In this document: one piece after another, positions 45,198-61,221 of the stretch
How positions within the stretch are numbered: the first letter of the stretch is position 1
Layout of the letters: each line of letters begins with the position of its first letter
The notes under the pieces: model-generated
Told to the model about the DNA's origin: nothing
What the model saw: only the letters and a program-made list of their open reading frames with translations
Database searches by the model: none
From: Longibacter salinarum
GTDB lineage: Bacteria; Bacteroidota; Rhodothermia; Rhodothermales; Salinibacteraceae
NCBI RefSeq assembly: GCF_002554795.1
Contig: NZ_PDEQ01000001.1
Coordinates: forward strand, 620,001-684,000
Length of the DNA stretch: 64,000 nucleotides
Direction of reading: 5' to 3'
Program-made: the position numbers and the translations under genes

Positions 45198-46595
45198 TTA
45201 GAATCGAGCCGTGAGGCTGACCTTCGGCTGAACGGAGTCGCTGAGCCGGATGCGCCGTCCATTTGGGCCTGGGAGAGATGGGATCGTCGGCGTAATGCGC
45301 AGGTTGAGCCCCACGGTTGAACCACGCTGGCGCGCCTGCCGGGCAGCATCTCCAGCGAACACGCCGTACGTAAAGGCCGATCCCGCCAATGAGCCGAGCG
45401 CTTGGAGCATCACAGCAGTGTCCTCGGTGGCCTCCGTTGCGACCGCAATTCCGCCACCGAAAAGAGAACCAGCAACTCCGCCGAGCACAACCAGATTTCC
45501 CTGTGCCGACGTGAAGTCTCGATTCCTGACCAGGTACCGACCGAGGACGAGTCCACCCGTACCGGCCAGCGTAACAGCGAGGGACGGACCGTACTCTCCA
45601 TCGACGTCTGCTGCGGCGAGAGTCGAGCCCGAAAGGTTTGCCGCCAGAAGACCGGTTTGAAGATAAATGCGGGCATCGCCTTCTGTGTACCTGTCGCTTC
45701 GCCCGAGTTGGTGTCCGATGACGGCCCCGGTGAGGGATCCGGCAATAGATAGTCCACTCAGGAGGCGGACCGATCCACCGTCTCCGACAAAGCCGCGGGC
45801 AAGTCCGTAGCCGATCAGGTTTCCGGAAAGACCGGTGAACGAGGTCATCTCAGCATGCCCGCCGCTCCAGTCGTTCCGGCGCGCAATGGTGTAGCCGAGG
45901 AGGCTTTCGCCCGCGATCGAAAGTGCAGTTACACCTGTGGCCAGGCGCTCGTCGTCGACGTCCTCGTCGCCACTCGCGAGCAGATACAGTTGTAGGCCGT
46001 GCGCTGCTCCCTGCAGGCCGCCGTAAAACGTCATGTCGGCCTCTGCTTCCGTCGCATTGGCATTCTGGGTCAGAACGAGTGGAACGAAGAACCCGGTCGC
46101 GCCCCCGATGAGCGTAACGGAGCCTGCCGCCTCCCCATCGAGACCGAGTGCAGCACTCACGAGTCCTCCCTCCGCGAGGCCAATTAACGTCGTCGATGCA
46201 AGCAAGCCATATCGCCCGTCTTGATCCAGTCGAGGTCTGGCCTTTATCCGCTGCAGCCCACTCGTCACCTTGGCGCGAAGCGATTGAACATCGCTCGTTG
46301 AGAGGGTGCGCCGCTCGCGGACCGTGCTTTGTCCCGTGCGATAGTGTATGACAAGCTCAAACTGTCCGTCGGATAGCTCGTAGAGCGCAGCGCTTTGGAA
46401 TCCGGTTATGTCAGGAAAGAGGCCAAGCTCATGTCGAAGCTCGGCGTCGATTGTATACACGGTTCCGTTCTGGTCAACCGGGACCTGCGCCTCCTGCCCC
46501 GCTGCGTTCGGTACCGTCACGACGGCCAGGACAAGCAGGAGTACCGCGATACCGGGTGCAGTGCGAGTCGCAACATTCTCGATGGATAGGCTCAT
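45198..46595 (-). CDS. Exported glycine-rich repeat protein of unknown function
   Basis: The 465-residue protein has a signal peptide (APGIAVLLLVLAVVTVPNAAGQ). After a domain up to ~140, residues ~150-430 contain ~50-residue repeats. Each has an Asp-aromatic-Ser/Thr turn (NDWSGGHAE, DRYTEGDAR, RDFTSAQGN), then a hydrophobic glycine-rich segment with G-x-x-(A/G)-(N/S)-L-x-G. The segments could pair as glycine-zipper membrane hairpins or line a barrel. It ends in ...VSLTARF with an aromatic last residue, an outer-membrane-like end. I do not recognise the family. It lies between the DUF255 gene and a divergent region, with no operon partner. Confidence 0.65.
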   Translation of the reverse strand: MSLSIENVATRTAPGIAVLLLVLAVVTVPNAAGQEAQVPVDQNGTVYTIDAELRHELGLFPDITGFQSAALYELSDGQFELVIHYRTGQSTVRERRTLSTSDVQSLRAKVTSGLQRIKARPRLDQDGRYGLLASTTLIGLAEGGLVSAALGLDGEAAGSVTLIGGATGFFVPLVLTQNANATEAEADMTFYGGLQGAAHGLQLYLLASGDEDVDDERLATGVTALSIAGESLLGYTIARRNDWSGGHAEMTSFTGLSGNLIGYGLARGFVGDGGSVRLLSGLSIAGSLTGAVIGHQLGRSDRYTEGDARIYLQTGLLAANLSGSTLAAADVDGEYGPSLAVTLAGTGGLVLGRYLVRNRDFTSAQGNLVVLGGVAGSLFGGGIAVATEATEDTAVMLQALGSLAGSAFTYGVFAGDAARQARQRGSTVGLNLRITPTIPSLPGPNGRRIRLSDSVQPKVSLTARF

Positions 46596-46714: not shown

Positions 46715-46755
46715 ACGACCTTTCCCCGAGCCGTTTAAGCCCAGAGAAAGGTCGT
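46715..46755 (-). terminator. Terminator of the M14 peptidase gene
   Basis: ACGACCTTTC pairs with GAAAGGTCGT (10 bp) around a 21-base loop; on the minus strand the stem is followed by TTTTT. It lies ~80 bases past the stop at 46834. Confidence 0.75.
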
Positions 46756-57312: not shown

Positions 57313-60300
57313 ATGGTAGCCGTACAGCGTGACACTCTGATCGACATGGACGTAGCTAAACTCATCGAACACAACGCGCAGAACTCGGCCAGACGTTCGT
57401 CTGCGGTCAAGTTGAAGGGTGCCCTCGAACGCATCGTCCGAATGGCGGTCCGAGCATCCGGCATGTCGTGGGGCGTCATCCTTTTTCCATCGACACAGAA
57501 TGATGACAGCCGTGCAGAGACGTGGCACCCGTCGATCTCACATGGAGAATCGTCGTTGCGTCCGGCGTCCATCGATCCGGAGGCTCTCTCGATATTGTCC
57601 GAGCACGTCTGGGCCTCCGAGGGACCATATGTCCACGTAAGCGCGGAGAACGTGACTCGTGATCGTGGGATGATCGAACACGATCGATGTGCAGATGCAG
57701 GTACGGTGGAATCGTCCGCGACCCCGTCTGCGTCCATCGCGGGAATCGCTCTAACTGCGCCGTCTGACCCCGAAGTTCTGGATGCACCTGCCGGGAACGC
57801 AGAATGCCATCGCTCTACCTCAGACGGCACCTGGGGTATATTACTTCTCGTGTCGGATCATGCTCTCTCCTGGCTCGAAAAGACCGAAACGGATACAGGT
57901 CGCGAGTCAGGCGAGGAACCGTCTGTTGACAGAGGGCCGATTGAGCACCGGCCCGATCCAAACGCAGCGATATCCGAAGTCCTCACCGACGCGGCCGAAC
58001 TGGCGTCATCCTCCGTTCAGGGATATGCGGATGCTACAGGCCACCTCCGATACCGCCGTTTCATCTCCGAAAGCGACCAGGGAATCTACCGCATGGAGGT
58101 AGACCCTCCCGTACCGACCGATCTGGACGTGGATGAGCAGGTGGATCGATTCCTGGTAGCCTCCCGGGTTGCAGAGTGCAACGAAGCGTATGCACAAATG
58201 TACGGGGTCGACTCTCCGGAAGAGATCATCGGATTACGGCTTAGCGATCTGTACGGTGGCGAGGCGGAGGCAAACCGGTCTGTCCAGCGGACTTTCATCA
58301 AGAAAGGCTACCGCGTGAGCAACGTCATCACGCAGGAAGAAGACCAGGCAGGAAATCGGCTCTACTTCTCCAATACAGCATTTAGCATCATCATTGATGG
58401 GGCCGTCCACCGCGTCTGGGGAATCCAGCAGGATGTCACGCCCATCAAGGAAGCAGAAGCTGCGCTAAACCATAGCGAGCGCCTGCTCGCCTCGACAATC
58501 GACACCTATCCATTCGCAACGGCGATCTTCGATGCCGACCTGCGCTATCTGTATGCAAATGATCTTGCAGCAGCTTCGAGTGATGTCGACGCTGAAGGCA
58601 TGATCGGGAAACGTCCGGAGAAGCTTTATCCCACGGGCATTTGGGAGCCGCTTCTTCCAATCCTTCAGCGATGCCGCGAAGAGGAGTCCTTTACACAGAG
58701 GGTTGTCCCCATTCAACGGGACGACGGCACGGAGCGGGTCATCATCGCCACCTTCGTCCCCCTTCTCGGTGAACAAGGAGCCCTGGAGGCGATCATCGCG
58801 AGTACGAGGGATATCACGGAAGAGCGACGAGCGAAGCGAGAGCTTCGGCAATCCGAGCAGCGTCTATCCTTGCACGTCGAGCACTCGCCTTTGGCGTTCG
58901 TAGAGTGGGATGTTGACGGTCGGATCGTAAAATGGAATCCGGCAGCCGAGCAGATCTTTGGCTACACGGCCCGCGAGGCCCGCGGTCTTCACGTCGCTGA
59001 CCTCTCGCCCTACGCCGATCGCGAGGAAACGCAGGACATGTGGCGGGACATCATTTCGAATCAACGACCGATTCGCCAACAGCGTCGCAGAAACCTCACG
59101 AAGGCCGGGCGGCTCATCCTCTGCGAGTGGTCAATGACGCCGCTGGTCAACCATTCTGGTACCGTGATCGGGGTGGCTGCCACGGCACAAGACGTGACGC
59201 AGGAGATTGAAGCTCGCGAGTCGCTGCGACAGGAGCGAGATCTTCTACGAGGTGTGGCTGAAACGAGCGCCGCTGGAATCATCGTGGCTGATAGACGAGG
59301 CCGCGTATCGTTTGTAAATACCCGTGCAGAGACCCTTCTTCGATCACGCCGCGCGGTGCTTTCGGAGAACTTCCTCGACGCAACATTCTGGTCGGCCCAC
59401 GACATTGATGGTCATCCCTTCACGTCCGATCAACTGCCGTTTCAGCGGGTGCTAGACTCAGAGCGGCCGGTATTTGACGTGGAAATGGTGCTCGATCGAC
59501 CGGGCGCAGACGTCATTCTTTCGATCAATGCGGCGCCGCTACACGATAACCAAGGCAATATATCACAGGTTGTCTTGGTAATGGAAGACGTGACCGAGCG
59601 GATGGAACGACAGATCCGCATCCGCGAGCATAACGACATCCTGTCCGGGCTAGCGAAGATGCTCGTGGAGAAGCGCGATAATGTCGACGAGATCCTGCGC
59701 TATGCTGCTCAAACCGCTAAAGATGCGTTTGGAACCGATCGGCTCAGCATCTGGAAACGGGATGATCAGACGGACGACTTCATTTGCATTGAGGTCGTCG
59801 GTCCGGGAGACCAGGATGATCTTGGAATGCGGATTGGAAAGTCGTCGTATCAACAGTATCTAAAAGCCATTCGGGGCCACCGTGCCGTCTGTAGCGAGGA
59901 TGTTCACGCGGATGAGCGGCTAGCCAAGCTAAAGGCCTACAACGATGAGCGTGACATCCGATCGACGCTCGATGCTCCGGTGCGAATTGGTGGCCAACTC
60001 GTCGGCCTGGTGTCTGCTGAGCATATCGGCGAGCGTCGCAGCTGGTCAGCGGATCTCATTAATTTCGCCGGCGCCATCGCGGATGTCGTTGCACAAACGT
60101 TCATCGTGTCGAAGCAAAAACGCACCCGCGCTGCCCTGCGACGGAGCGAACAGAGATGGAAAGCTCTGGTCGAGCACCATCCGGAAGGCGTAATGATTTC
60201 GATCGACGGCCAGGTCGCTTACGCAAATGAAGCGGCGCTAGCAATTCTGGGAGCGGATTCGTTGTCCGATCTGGAGAAGGAAACCTTGCGGCATATGGTT

Positions 60301-61221
60301 CACGACTCACATCTCGGAACGCTTAAAGATCGAATGCGCCGCGTAATCGACGGTCGAGAGAAGACCGAACCATGGGAGCATACCATTACCGGTCTCGATG
60401 GGAGCTCCCGAACGATCGTCTCTCAGTCCGTCCCGATTACGTATCGTGAGCAGCCGGCCGCGCAAACGGTGATGCGAGACGTAACGGACCGGCGAGCACG
60501 TGAGGAGGAGTTGCGCCGAGCCAAGGAGGAGGCCCAGCAGATGAGTCGGCTGAAGTCCACATTCCTCGCGAACATGAGTCATGAGATCCGCACGCCGCTC
60601 ACATCGATCATCGGTTTTGCGGAGGTGTTGGAGGGTCGTGAATCTACGACCGAGAACGACATCGCTACGATTATTGGCCGCAGTAGCCAGCGGTTGCTGC
60701 GAACGCTGAACTCCGTCTTGGACCTATCCAAACTCGAGGCGGGAGCGATGAAGTGCTGCCCGGAGTGGGTCGATGTCAAGAAGCGAACACAGGAATCCGT
60801 TCGGCTTTTCCAACCGAAGACCGCGGAAGCCAACGTGACGATGCGGACGGAGGTTCCCGCCTCTCCCCTGCGCTCACACCTCGATGTATCGGCTCTGGAC
60901 CGGATCCTTGACAACCTGATCGGGAATGCGATCAAGTTCACACCGGAGGGAGGTCACGTTACGGTTCGCGCCAGCGGCACGGATGATGTCGTCACACTCG
61001 AGGTGGAGGATACAGGAATCGGTGTGCCGGACGATTTCCGCCAGCATCTTTTCGAACCGTTTCTGCAGGCTCCTTCTGGCCCGGACAACGACCACCAGGG
61101 TACGGGTCTAGGACTCGCGATCACACGGCAACTCATCCGGCTGATGGGCGGAGAGATCTCGGTCAGCAGCACCGAAGGCGTAGGAACGTGTTTTACCGTT
61201 ACGCTTCCGCGGGAGCTTTAG
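57313..61221 (+). CDS. Soluble multi-PAS/GAF sensor histidine kinase
   Basis: This 1302-residue protein has no membrane segment and no signal peptide, so it senses inside the cell. Order: an N-terminal domain to ~230 of uncertain type; PAS-like domains at ~245-383, 388-513, 518-640 and 645-770; a GAF domain at ~771-932; another PAS at ~940-1060; then HisKA with phospho-acceptor His1090 (NMSHEIRTPL) and HATPase (N box DNLIGNAIKF, G1 VEDTGIGVPD, G2 GTGLGLAIT). It has no receiver domain, so a separate regulator is needed. A palindrome CCTCCCGGGAGG at 57264-57275 lies 37 bases before the start and could be an operator. Confidence 0.93.
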   Translation: MVAVQRDTLIDMDVAKLIEHNAQNSARRSSAVKLKGALERIVRMAVRASGMSWGVILFPSTQNDDSRAETWHPSISHGESSLRPASIDPEALSILSEHVWASEGPYVHVSAENVTRDRGMIEHDRCADAGTVESSATPSASIAGIALTAPSDPEVLDAPAGNAECHRSTSDGTWGILLLVSDHALSWLEKTETDTGRESGEEPSVDRGPIEHRPDPNAAISEVLTDAAELASSSVQGYADATGHLRYRRFISESDQGIYRMEVDPPVPTDLDVDEQVDRFLVASRVAECNEAYAQMYGVDSPEEIIGLRLSDLYGGEAEANRSVQRTFIKKGYRVSNVITQEEDQAGNRLYFSNTAFSIIIDGAVHRVWGIQQDVTPIKEAEAALNHSERLLASTIDTYPFATAIFDADLRYLYANDLAAASSDVDAEGMIGKRPEKLYPTGIWEPLLPILQRCREEESFTQRVVPIQRDDGTERVIIATFVPLLGEQGALEAIIASTRDITEERRAKRELRQSEQRLSLHVEHSPLAFVEWDVDGRIVKWNPAAEQIFGYTAREARGLHVADLSPYADREETQDMWRDIISNQRPIRQQRRRNLTKAGRLILCEWSMTPLVNHSGTVIGVAATAQDVTQEIEARESLRQERDLLRGVAETSAAGIIVADRRGRVSFVNTRAETLLRSRRAVLSENFLDATFWSAHDIDGHPFTSDQLPFQRVLDSERPVFDVEMVLDRPGADVILSINAAPLHDNQGNISQVVLVMEDVTERMERQIRIREHNDILSGLAKMLVEKRDNVDEILRYAAQTAKDAFGTDRLSIWKRDDQTDDFICIEVVGPGDQDDLGMRIGKSSYQQYLKAIRGHRAVCSEDVHADERLAKLKAYNDERDIRSTLDAPVRIGGQLVGLVSAEHIGERRSWSADLINFAGAIADVVAQTFIVSKQKRTRAALRRSEQRWKALVEHHPEGVMISIDGQVAYANEAALAILGADSLSDLEKETLRHMVHDSHLGTLKDRMRRVIDGREKTEPWEHTITGLDGSSRTIVSQSVPITYREQPAAQTVMRDVTDRRAREEELRRAKEEAQQMSRLKSTFLANMSHEIRTPLTSIIGFAEVLEGRESTTENDIATIIGRSSQRLLRTLNSVLDLSKLEAGAMKCCPEWVDVKKRTQESVRLFQPKTAEANVTMRTEVPASPLRSHLDVSALDRILDNLIGNAIKFTPEGGHVTVRASGTDDVVTLEVEDTGIGVPDDFRQHLFEPFLQAPSGPDNDHQGTGLGLAITRQLIRLMGGEISVSSTEGVGTCFTVTLPREL

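Follow-up and report, generated by a model that had tools for sequence, protein, structure and literature searches.

A candidate outer-membrane protein of five tandem, probably helical hairpins in Longibacter salinarum and its patchily distributed family

Closest described systems and the protein of the window

The hairpin of SlyB is helical, and glycine-zipper hairpins of the SlyB type appear to be nearest in kind to the protein described here, the link in sequence being weak. PMC13067283 presents SlyB as a guard lipoprotein of the outer membrane whose transmembrane complexes are ring-shaped, and a list of vesicle proteins in PMC10967770 assigns glycine-zipper 2TM proteins to the outer membrane. 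The PF05433 proteins (SlyB, the 17 kDa antigen and OmpA-fused forms) resemble the protein of the window, by which we mean the whole 64,000-nucleotide stretch of DNA that was analysed, in that they are exported and contain a glycine-rich hairpin. They have one hairpin of about 43 profile positions, whereas the window protein has five of about 59, and the latter, which lacks a lipobox, also has an N-terminal domain set apart from the hairpins, an H-E pair and a strand at the C-terminus. A PF05433 glycine-zipper ORF of 255 aa is present in the same genome (G000:C2:587160-587285), and the corresponding ORFs of the relatives inspected look fused to an OmpA domain.

The other described systems to be considered are Wza, the other OPX proteins and the VirB10 protein of type IV secretion systems, which according to PMC11845990 have helical outer-membrane segments with one or two helices per chain. 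The likeness to the Wza/OPX exporters and VirB10 lies in helical outer-membrane segments of low inner-membrane insertion potential according to the same paper. Those proteins form a multimeric ring to which each subunit contributes one or two helices, whereas the window protein would have ten helices in one chain, and no OPX family was among the matches in a Pfam scan of the window protein.

The reading that we propose, with roughly even confidence, is that the window encodes an exported single-chain outer-membrane protein built of five tandem alpha-helical hairpins. The ORF that an earlier note, made from the DNA alone, had placed at 45198-46595 was confirmed on the minus strand, with its ATG start, 465 amino acids and an aromatic last residue, which is F. 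The features discussed below are as follows.

45198..46595, minus strand: protein ORF, 465 aa plus stop, ATG start, last residue F; homologues found
46497..46595, minus strand: probable signal peptide, residues 1-33; hydrophobic peak 15-33, loosely A-x-A-Q-like site at Q34
46242..46496, minus strand: N-terminal domain, residues 34-118; strand-helix-three strands-helix as predicted by AlphaFold2; related domains on other exported proteins
46068..46235, minus strand: hairpin unit 1, residues 121-176; weak repeat match, segment pairing by covariation
45882..46067, minus strand: hairpin unit 2, residues 177-238; repeat match and covariation; holds H199 and E230
45702..45881, minus strand: hairpin unit 3, residues 239-298 (NDWSGGHAE); repeat match
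45528..45701, minus strand: hairpin unit 4, residues 299-356 (DRYTEGDAR); repeat match
45348..45527, minus strand: hairpin unit 5, residues 357-416 (RDFTSAQGN); repeat match
45201..45323, minus strand: C-terminal region, residues 425-465; by eye two strands; P436 and P457 are conserved and the last residue is aromatic or large and hydrophobic
45999..46001, minus strand: H199 codon; coupled with E230, mutual information rank 1
45906..45908, minus strand: E230 codon; coupled with H199, mutual information rank 1
46715..46755, minus strand: terminator-like stem of 18 pairs plus T run, between the upstream gene and the 465-aa ORF; consensus match only

Repeat units, helical segments and the coupled pair

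The earlier note proposed a repeat-built envelope protein, and both parts of this proposal were supported, the repeats by profile comparisons and the envelope by the export signal. The three repeats that it saw are real, but they belong to a set of five units of 56 to 62 residues (about 59) spanning residues 121-416, of which the first is weak and the other four are clear. Two glycine-rich segments lie in each unit, which gives ten segments in all. The anchors on which the repeats had been aligned were located at residues 241-249 (NDWSGGHAE), 301-309 (DRYTEGDAR) and 359-367 (RDFTSAQGN), with spacings of 60 and 58 residues. The accompanying motif G-x-x-(A/G)-(N/S)-L-x-G is exact after the first anchor (255-262, GLSGNLIG) and the third (373-380, GVAGSLFG), but contains an extra residue after the second (315-323, GLLAANLSG).

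The units, with boundaries set by eye, were compared by hhalign using a 15-row family profile for each. Five pairs were strong (units 3 and 5, E 4.3e-8; 3 and 4, E 5.1e-8; 2 and 3, E 6.2e-6; 4 and 5, E 9.0e-6; 2 and 5, E 1.6e-4), with scores of 22.8 to 37.7 against 8.7 to 17.7 for the best of 12 column-shuffled controls and 9.5 to 15.4 for reversed controls of the same pairs. The match of unit 2 with unit 4 was weaker (score 15.3, best control 19.5), as were all four pairs involving unit 1 (best E 0.0014, score 18.4, best control 10.8). By these scores relative to their controls, four units are clear repeats and unit 1 is probably a diverged one. The repeat pattern is kept in the homologues; its loss there was one of the outcomes that the earlier note had named as speaking against it. 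GxxxG motifs in residues 126-420 number 15 where 9.6 are expected, a modest excess when taken alone (62 of 2000 shuffles were as high). A 400-aa protein encoded in the same order (L016:254-1453) has similar glycine-rich segments (E 9.4e-8) and a different start that looks TPR-like by eye; judging from this protein, the helical repeat may be a mobile module.

With segment limits taken from an AlphaFold2 model of the whole chain of low confidence (three rows, pLDDT 40.7), conservation along the ten segments has a period of 100 degrees in a 14-row alignment, in which none of 1000 shuffles matched the power in the helix band and the strand band was at chance. It is because of this period that the ten segments are most likely alpha helices. 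An 80-row alignment, which mostly includes the same 14 rows, again has the helix period and a strand band at chance, and the ten helices of the model agree with the units drawn by eye earlier. Other residue properties gave a less uniform picture. Side-chain volume does not tell helix from strand, since it raises both bands and has its peak at 180 degrees; for hydropathy along the segments the peak is at 80 degrees and the helix band is no higher than chance, and the hydropathy helix moment of the helical domain is not raised (z -1.23). The strand moment of the segments is z -0.05, and alternating amphipathic strands were not seen. Structure comparisons of the helical part rest on the same poor model. 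The top VIA-align look-alike was 8qag (Z 13.0, rmsd 5.9, 268 aligned), but a Z near 13 is common for helical models, so that the Foldseek and VIA-align lists for the whole chain mean little; designed alpha/alpha toroids and single-chain helical barrels stand at the top of the look-alike list, and we claim no kinship with them.

Covariation was analysed with the same segment limits in two alignments, one of 52 rows (ORFs spanning at most 350 profile positions left out; 61 kept, 52 after duplicates were removed) and one of 80 rows (ORFs spanning at most 300 positions left out; 92 kept, 80 after duplicates were removed), the 52 rows being nearly all contained in the 80. Among the top 200 coupled pairs of the 52 rows, 21 lie in antiparallel register within a unit (6.9 expected) and 16 in parallel register between the first segments of successive units (5.6 expected), it being understood that equivalent positions of repeats can co-change without contact. 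In controls the within-unit antiparallel count was 2 to 9 when the helix map was slid by 6 to 30 residues, and 1 to 11 with a mean of 6.1 in 20 column-shuffled alignments. The 80 rows gave 19 against 7.0 expected for the antiparallel class and 16 against 5.8 for the parallel one. Coupled pairs that link the second segment of one unit to the first segment of the following one are not in excess in the 52 rows (5, with 5.4 expected), and in the top 400 pairs of the 80 rows they are raised (24, with 11.2 expected) together with other classes. The covariation suggests helical hairpins standing in a row, with contact between their first helices. Since the pairs of second with following first segments and other classes are also raised at 80 rows, this arrangement is not unique and other packings stay open.

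The second segment of unit 1 is also coupled with the first segment of unit 5, with 7 pairs in register against 1.3 expected in the 52 rows (p 3e-4) and 5 against 1.3 in the 80 rows (p 0.011), these p values treating residue pairs as independent. In the 80 rows this coupling is weakened by 4 out-of-register pairs where 0.8 are expected, and correction for 17 classes removes the signal. The coupling hints at a contact of the first unit with the last, that is, at closure of a ring. We nevertheless hold it doubtful that the protein is a single-chain closed ring in which five helical hairpins cross the outer membrane, hairpin 1 packs on the last one, and a buried site, made of Q-H-E or, in one branch, of R-D-E, acts as a gate or switch; such a ring would amount to an outer-membrane barrel built from the helices of one chain.

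H199 and E230 sit inside the two helical segments of unit 2, and they form the first of 52,326 pairs ranked by mutual information in the 52 rows and again rank first in the 80 rows. E at 230 is combined with H or D at 199 in 62 of the 80 rows, and neither is present in the remaining 18; H199 with E230 accounts for 57 rows, and D199 with E230, accompanied by R at 195, for 5. In the branch comprising L139, L151, L152, L153 and L154, which has D for H199 and R at 195, the net charge of the site is preserved. A quick tree of the 52 rows requires at least 3 changes at position 199 and at least 5 at position 230; both positions differ in all three of the independent pairs on this tree, which are too few for a test.

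Export, chain ends and membrane location

Export of the protein is well supported at the level of sequence, because a loosely defined A-x-A-Q-like site occurs at the conserved Q34 in 65 of the 80 rows, a few rows being cut before the site; Q34 itself is conserved in 69. This site and the hydrophobic peak at residues 15-33 agree with the signal peptide that had been noted earlier. The N-terminal domain that follows was modelled separately by AlphaFold2 (residues 34-122, three rows) with pLDDT 80.6. Comparison of this model gave weak matches in Foldseek (E 0.11 or worse) and in VIA-align (Z 5.2 for Pur-alpha and 5.1 for COMM domains), from which no fold is drawn, and the lack of a fold from such a look-alike list does not exclude it. 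Related N-terminal domains head other exported proteins (L017, L019, L030 and L166) that are barrel-like by eye. A Pfam scan of the first three of these returned zero hits, and the strand-moment test of the other proteins with this domain gave z of 1.1 to 1.8 only.

At the other end of the chain P436 is present in 79 and P457 in 76 of the 80 rows. Column 465 is F in 48 rows, L in 16, W in 13 and V in 1 (78 of 80 together), and F is the last residue of 42 of the 80 family rows compared with 9 of 253 sampled ORFs, the last-residue counts being rough because some rows are cut by contig or locus ends. The protein has the aromatic C-terminal end that is a trait of beta barrels, and the strand nature of the preceding residues was assigned by eye. 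Several family members have a tail after the C-terminal strand. A short ORF at L020:1423-1635 (G023:C1:532205-532336) repeats the C-terminal 39 residues of the L004 homologue letter for letter; it lies about 10 kb from that homologue and looks like a copied 3' end.

The segments of the window protein are weakly hydrophobic. Their mean on the octanol scale is -0.1, the second lowest among 25 ORFs with at least 7 hydrophobic peaks (median 5.2) in a background of 464 kb from this one genome. The sole lower mean among the 25 belongs to a 1302-aa ORF with seven weak hydrophobic peaks at 57313-61218 of the window. All 80 family rows fall below 5.2 (median 1.27); members elsewhere exceed the window protein in hydrophobicity, with values as high as 4.15, and in these the translocon could retain some of the helices. 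On this scale the glycine-zipper hairpins of proteins fused to OmpA lie far lower still (-8.2), and PMC11845990 gives the known outer-membrane helices a low inner-membrane insertion potential. The loops are also distinctive, with arginines between hairpins and acidic residues inside them. The mean net charge is +0.39 for loops between units and -5.41 for loops inside units, and the between-unit loops are the more positive in 66 of the 80 rows, equal in 8 and the reverse in 6. With a periplasmic N-terminal domain, an orientation assumed from the signal peptide, these charges run opposite to the positive-inside rule. An outer-membrane location is therefore favoured, as far as it can be judged from the weak hydrophobicity, the reversed loop charge, the signal peptide, the C-terminal strand and the occurrence of the N-terminal domain on barrel-like proteins.

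The main rival explanation is a polytopic protein of the inner membrane that carries a cleavable signal peptide and an N-terminal sensor domain on the periplasmic side, followed by ten membrane helices; H199 and E230 would then serve as a path for protons or ions, or as a sensor site. This is a possibility of some substance that we nonetheless think unlikely. Ten helical segments paired in antiparallel fashion would suit such a protein, as would a coupled ionisable pair within the helices, which is what an ion or proton path would be expected to have, and in several family members most of the peaks are above zero on the octanol scale (fractions of 0.83 and 0.88, for example). However, the loop charges go against the positive-inside rule in 66 of 80 rows, the window protein itself is weakly hydrophobic, and the conserved C-terminal strand with its aromatic end would be left without an evident role. 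Cleavable signal peptides are generally rare on polytopic inner-membrane proteins.

The earlier note had suggested a glycine-zipper assembly or a large barrel. The first suggestion stands loosely, in that the units appear to be helical hairpins rich in small residues, but kinship with the known glycine-zipper family is less certain, the profile matches being weak; that the units are diverged copies of the glycine-zipper 2TM family (PF05433, the kin of SlyB and the 17 kDa antigen), multiplied five times, is in our judgement improbable. Unit 5 does match the hairpins of nine glycine-zipper proteins fused to OmpA, its score of 19.2 (E 0.00095) being well above the 8.1 of the reversed control and the 10.2 of the best among 20 column-shuffled controls, and PF05433 occurs in 33 of 60 sampled genomes of the order, this genome included. 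But units 1 to 4 gave poor matches (E 0.0032 to 0.28), reversed controls scored at about the same level for units 3 and 4 (15.5 and 15.2), PF05433 is absent from the Pfam matches of the window protein and of 6 family members, the unit of about 59 residues exceeds the 43 profile positions, and the window protein has no lipobox and no cysteine near the A-x-A-Q-like site. The suggestion of a large barrel, taken as an outer-membrane beta barrel, was not supported and we give it next to no credence. A signal peptide and an aromatic C-terminus would fit it, and side-chain volume has a strand-like period as strong as the helix-like one, but conservation follows the 100-degree period, as strong in none of 1000 shuffles, while its strand band is at chance, and the segments exceed 20 residues without polar alternation (strand moment z -0.05). 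A barrel in the sense of a ring of helices is still conceivable. It is also very improbable that the protein lies in the periplasm or on the surface and does not span the membrane, its glycine-rich segments aggregating or forming a coat; this would be in keeping with the low hydrophobicity and a glycine content of 14 percent, but the register-specific covariation and the coupled pair point to one defined fold.

If the window protein is an outer-membrane protein of five helical hairpins, its signal peptide would take the chain through Sec, and the helices would be too weakly hydrophobic to be retained by the inner membrane. As happens with barrel proteins, the C-terminal strand and its aromatic end may then direct the chain to the outer membrane, and the N-terminal domain would presumably remain in the periplasm. 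The acidic loops within hairpins would face outward and the arginine-bearing loops between hairpins would face the periplasm, the glycine and alanine faces could pack the five hairpins into a compact bundle, and H199 and E230 might lock hairpin 2. As to function, a structural helical bundle of the outer membrane comes first and a narrow pore second among the possibilities, either being comparable to the membrane parts of SlyB and Wza but made by one chain.

Family spread, gene neighbourhood and significance

The family is unnamed and patchy within one phylum. In the organism's own family 6 of 27 genomes gave matches and all 13 genomes of one genus are without the protein, and a profile search of the order found it in 8 of 114 genomes, two of them with partial or N-domain matches. 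In a phylum sample of 296 genomes, the six-row profile matched 12, the N-terminal domain alone 14 and the helical part alone 15. Samples that overlap with one another gave denser pockets (14 of 23, 39 of 123 and 48 of 323 genomes, the last and largest being of one class, and 3 of 4 with the helical part) and sparse occurrence elsewhere (9 of 98 and 1 of 128). Paralogues stand in tandem in some genomes. Three long paralogues (L083, L089 and L091) carry, as judged by eye, an additional N-terminal stretch and begin with a lipobox-like sequence, and one paralogue, at L090 and L091 (G367:C111:44156-45275), lies in two adjoining frames of 252 and 484 aa that may be broken or reflect a sequencing error.

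Consistent with the earlier note, which had given a match to a characterised fold as grounds for abandoning its proposal, searches of Pfam, NCBIfam, the PDB and N-domain structures produced no significant match to such a fold, the fold comparison of the helical part resting on a poor model. Pfam matches of the window protein at E up to 10 included none of significance (PorA, E 0.11, under the cut-off), nor did those of 6 family members at E up to 1, and NCBIfam, searched with the window protein only, likewise had no significant match (rhombosortase, E 0.1, under the cut-off). PDB sequences had no significant match with the protein, the best E of a 14-row profile being 0.82, and plasmids (tblastn) and viral contigs yielded no usable match. 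A literature search found no description that we recognised as this family, nor one of a ten-helix single chain in the outer membrane.

The gene is flanked by one for a peptidase that looks M14-like by eye and one for a DUF255 protein (PF03190), and a similar peptidase is upstream in L002, L003 and L005. Terminator-like sites in the 2.1 kb scanned number 4, with 1.7 expected, and the terminator-like stem suggests a transcript of its own for the 465-aa ORF. Among 13 loci of other lineages, inspected by eye without a domain scan, no neighbour was common to many. Five loci of one family (L021-L024 and L026) have an alanine-dehydrogenase-like ORF nearby, as judged by eye. At L172:5397-6128 and L175:5591-6526 the next gene starts alike in both lineages and is perhaps an exonuclease. 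Because no general neighbour was seen in these 13 loci and the terminator-like stem separates the upstream gene, the protein may act alone.

The proteins of this family are probably located in the outer membrane, although barrels built of strands, and not of helices, are the rule there with few exceptions. A conserved, unnamed ten-helix family would allow tests of how weak helices pass through the inner membrane and insert into the outer membrane, and it would also allow a test of the C-terminal strand as an address signal.
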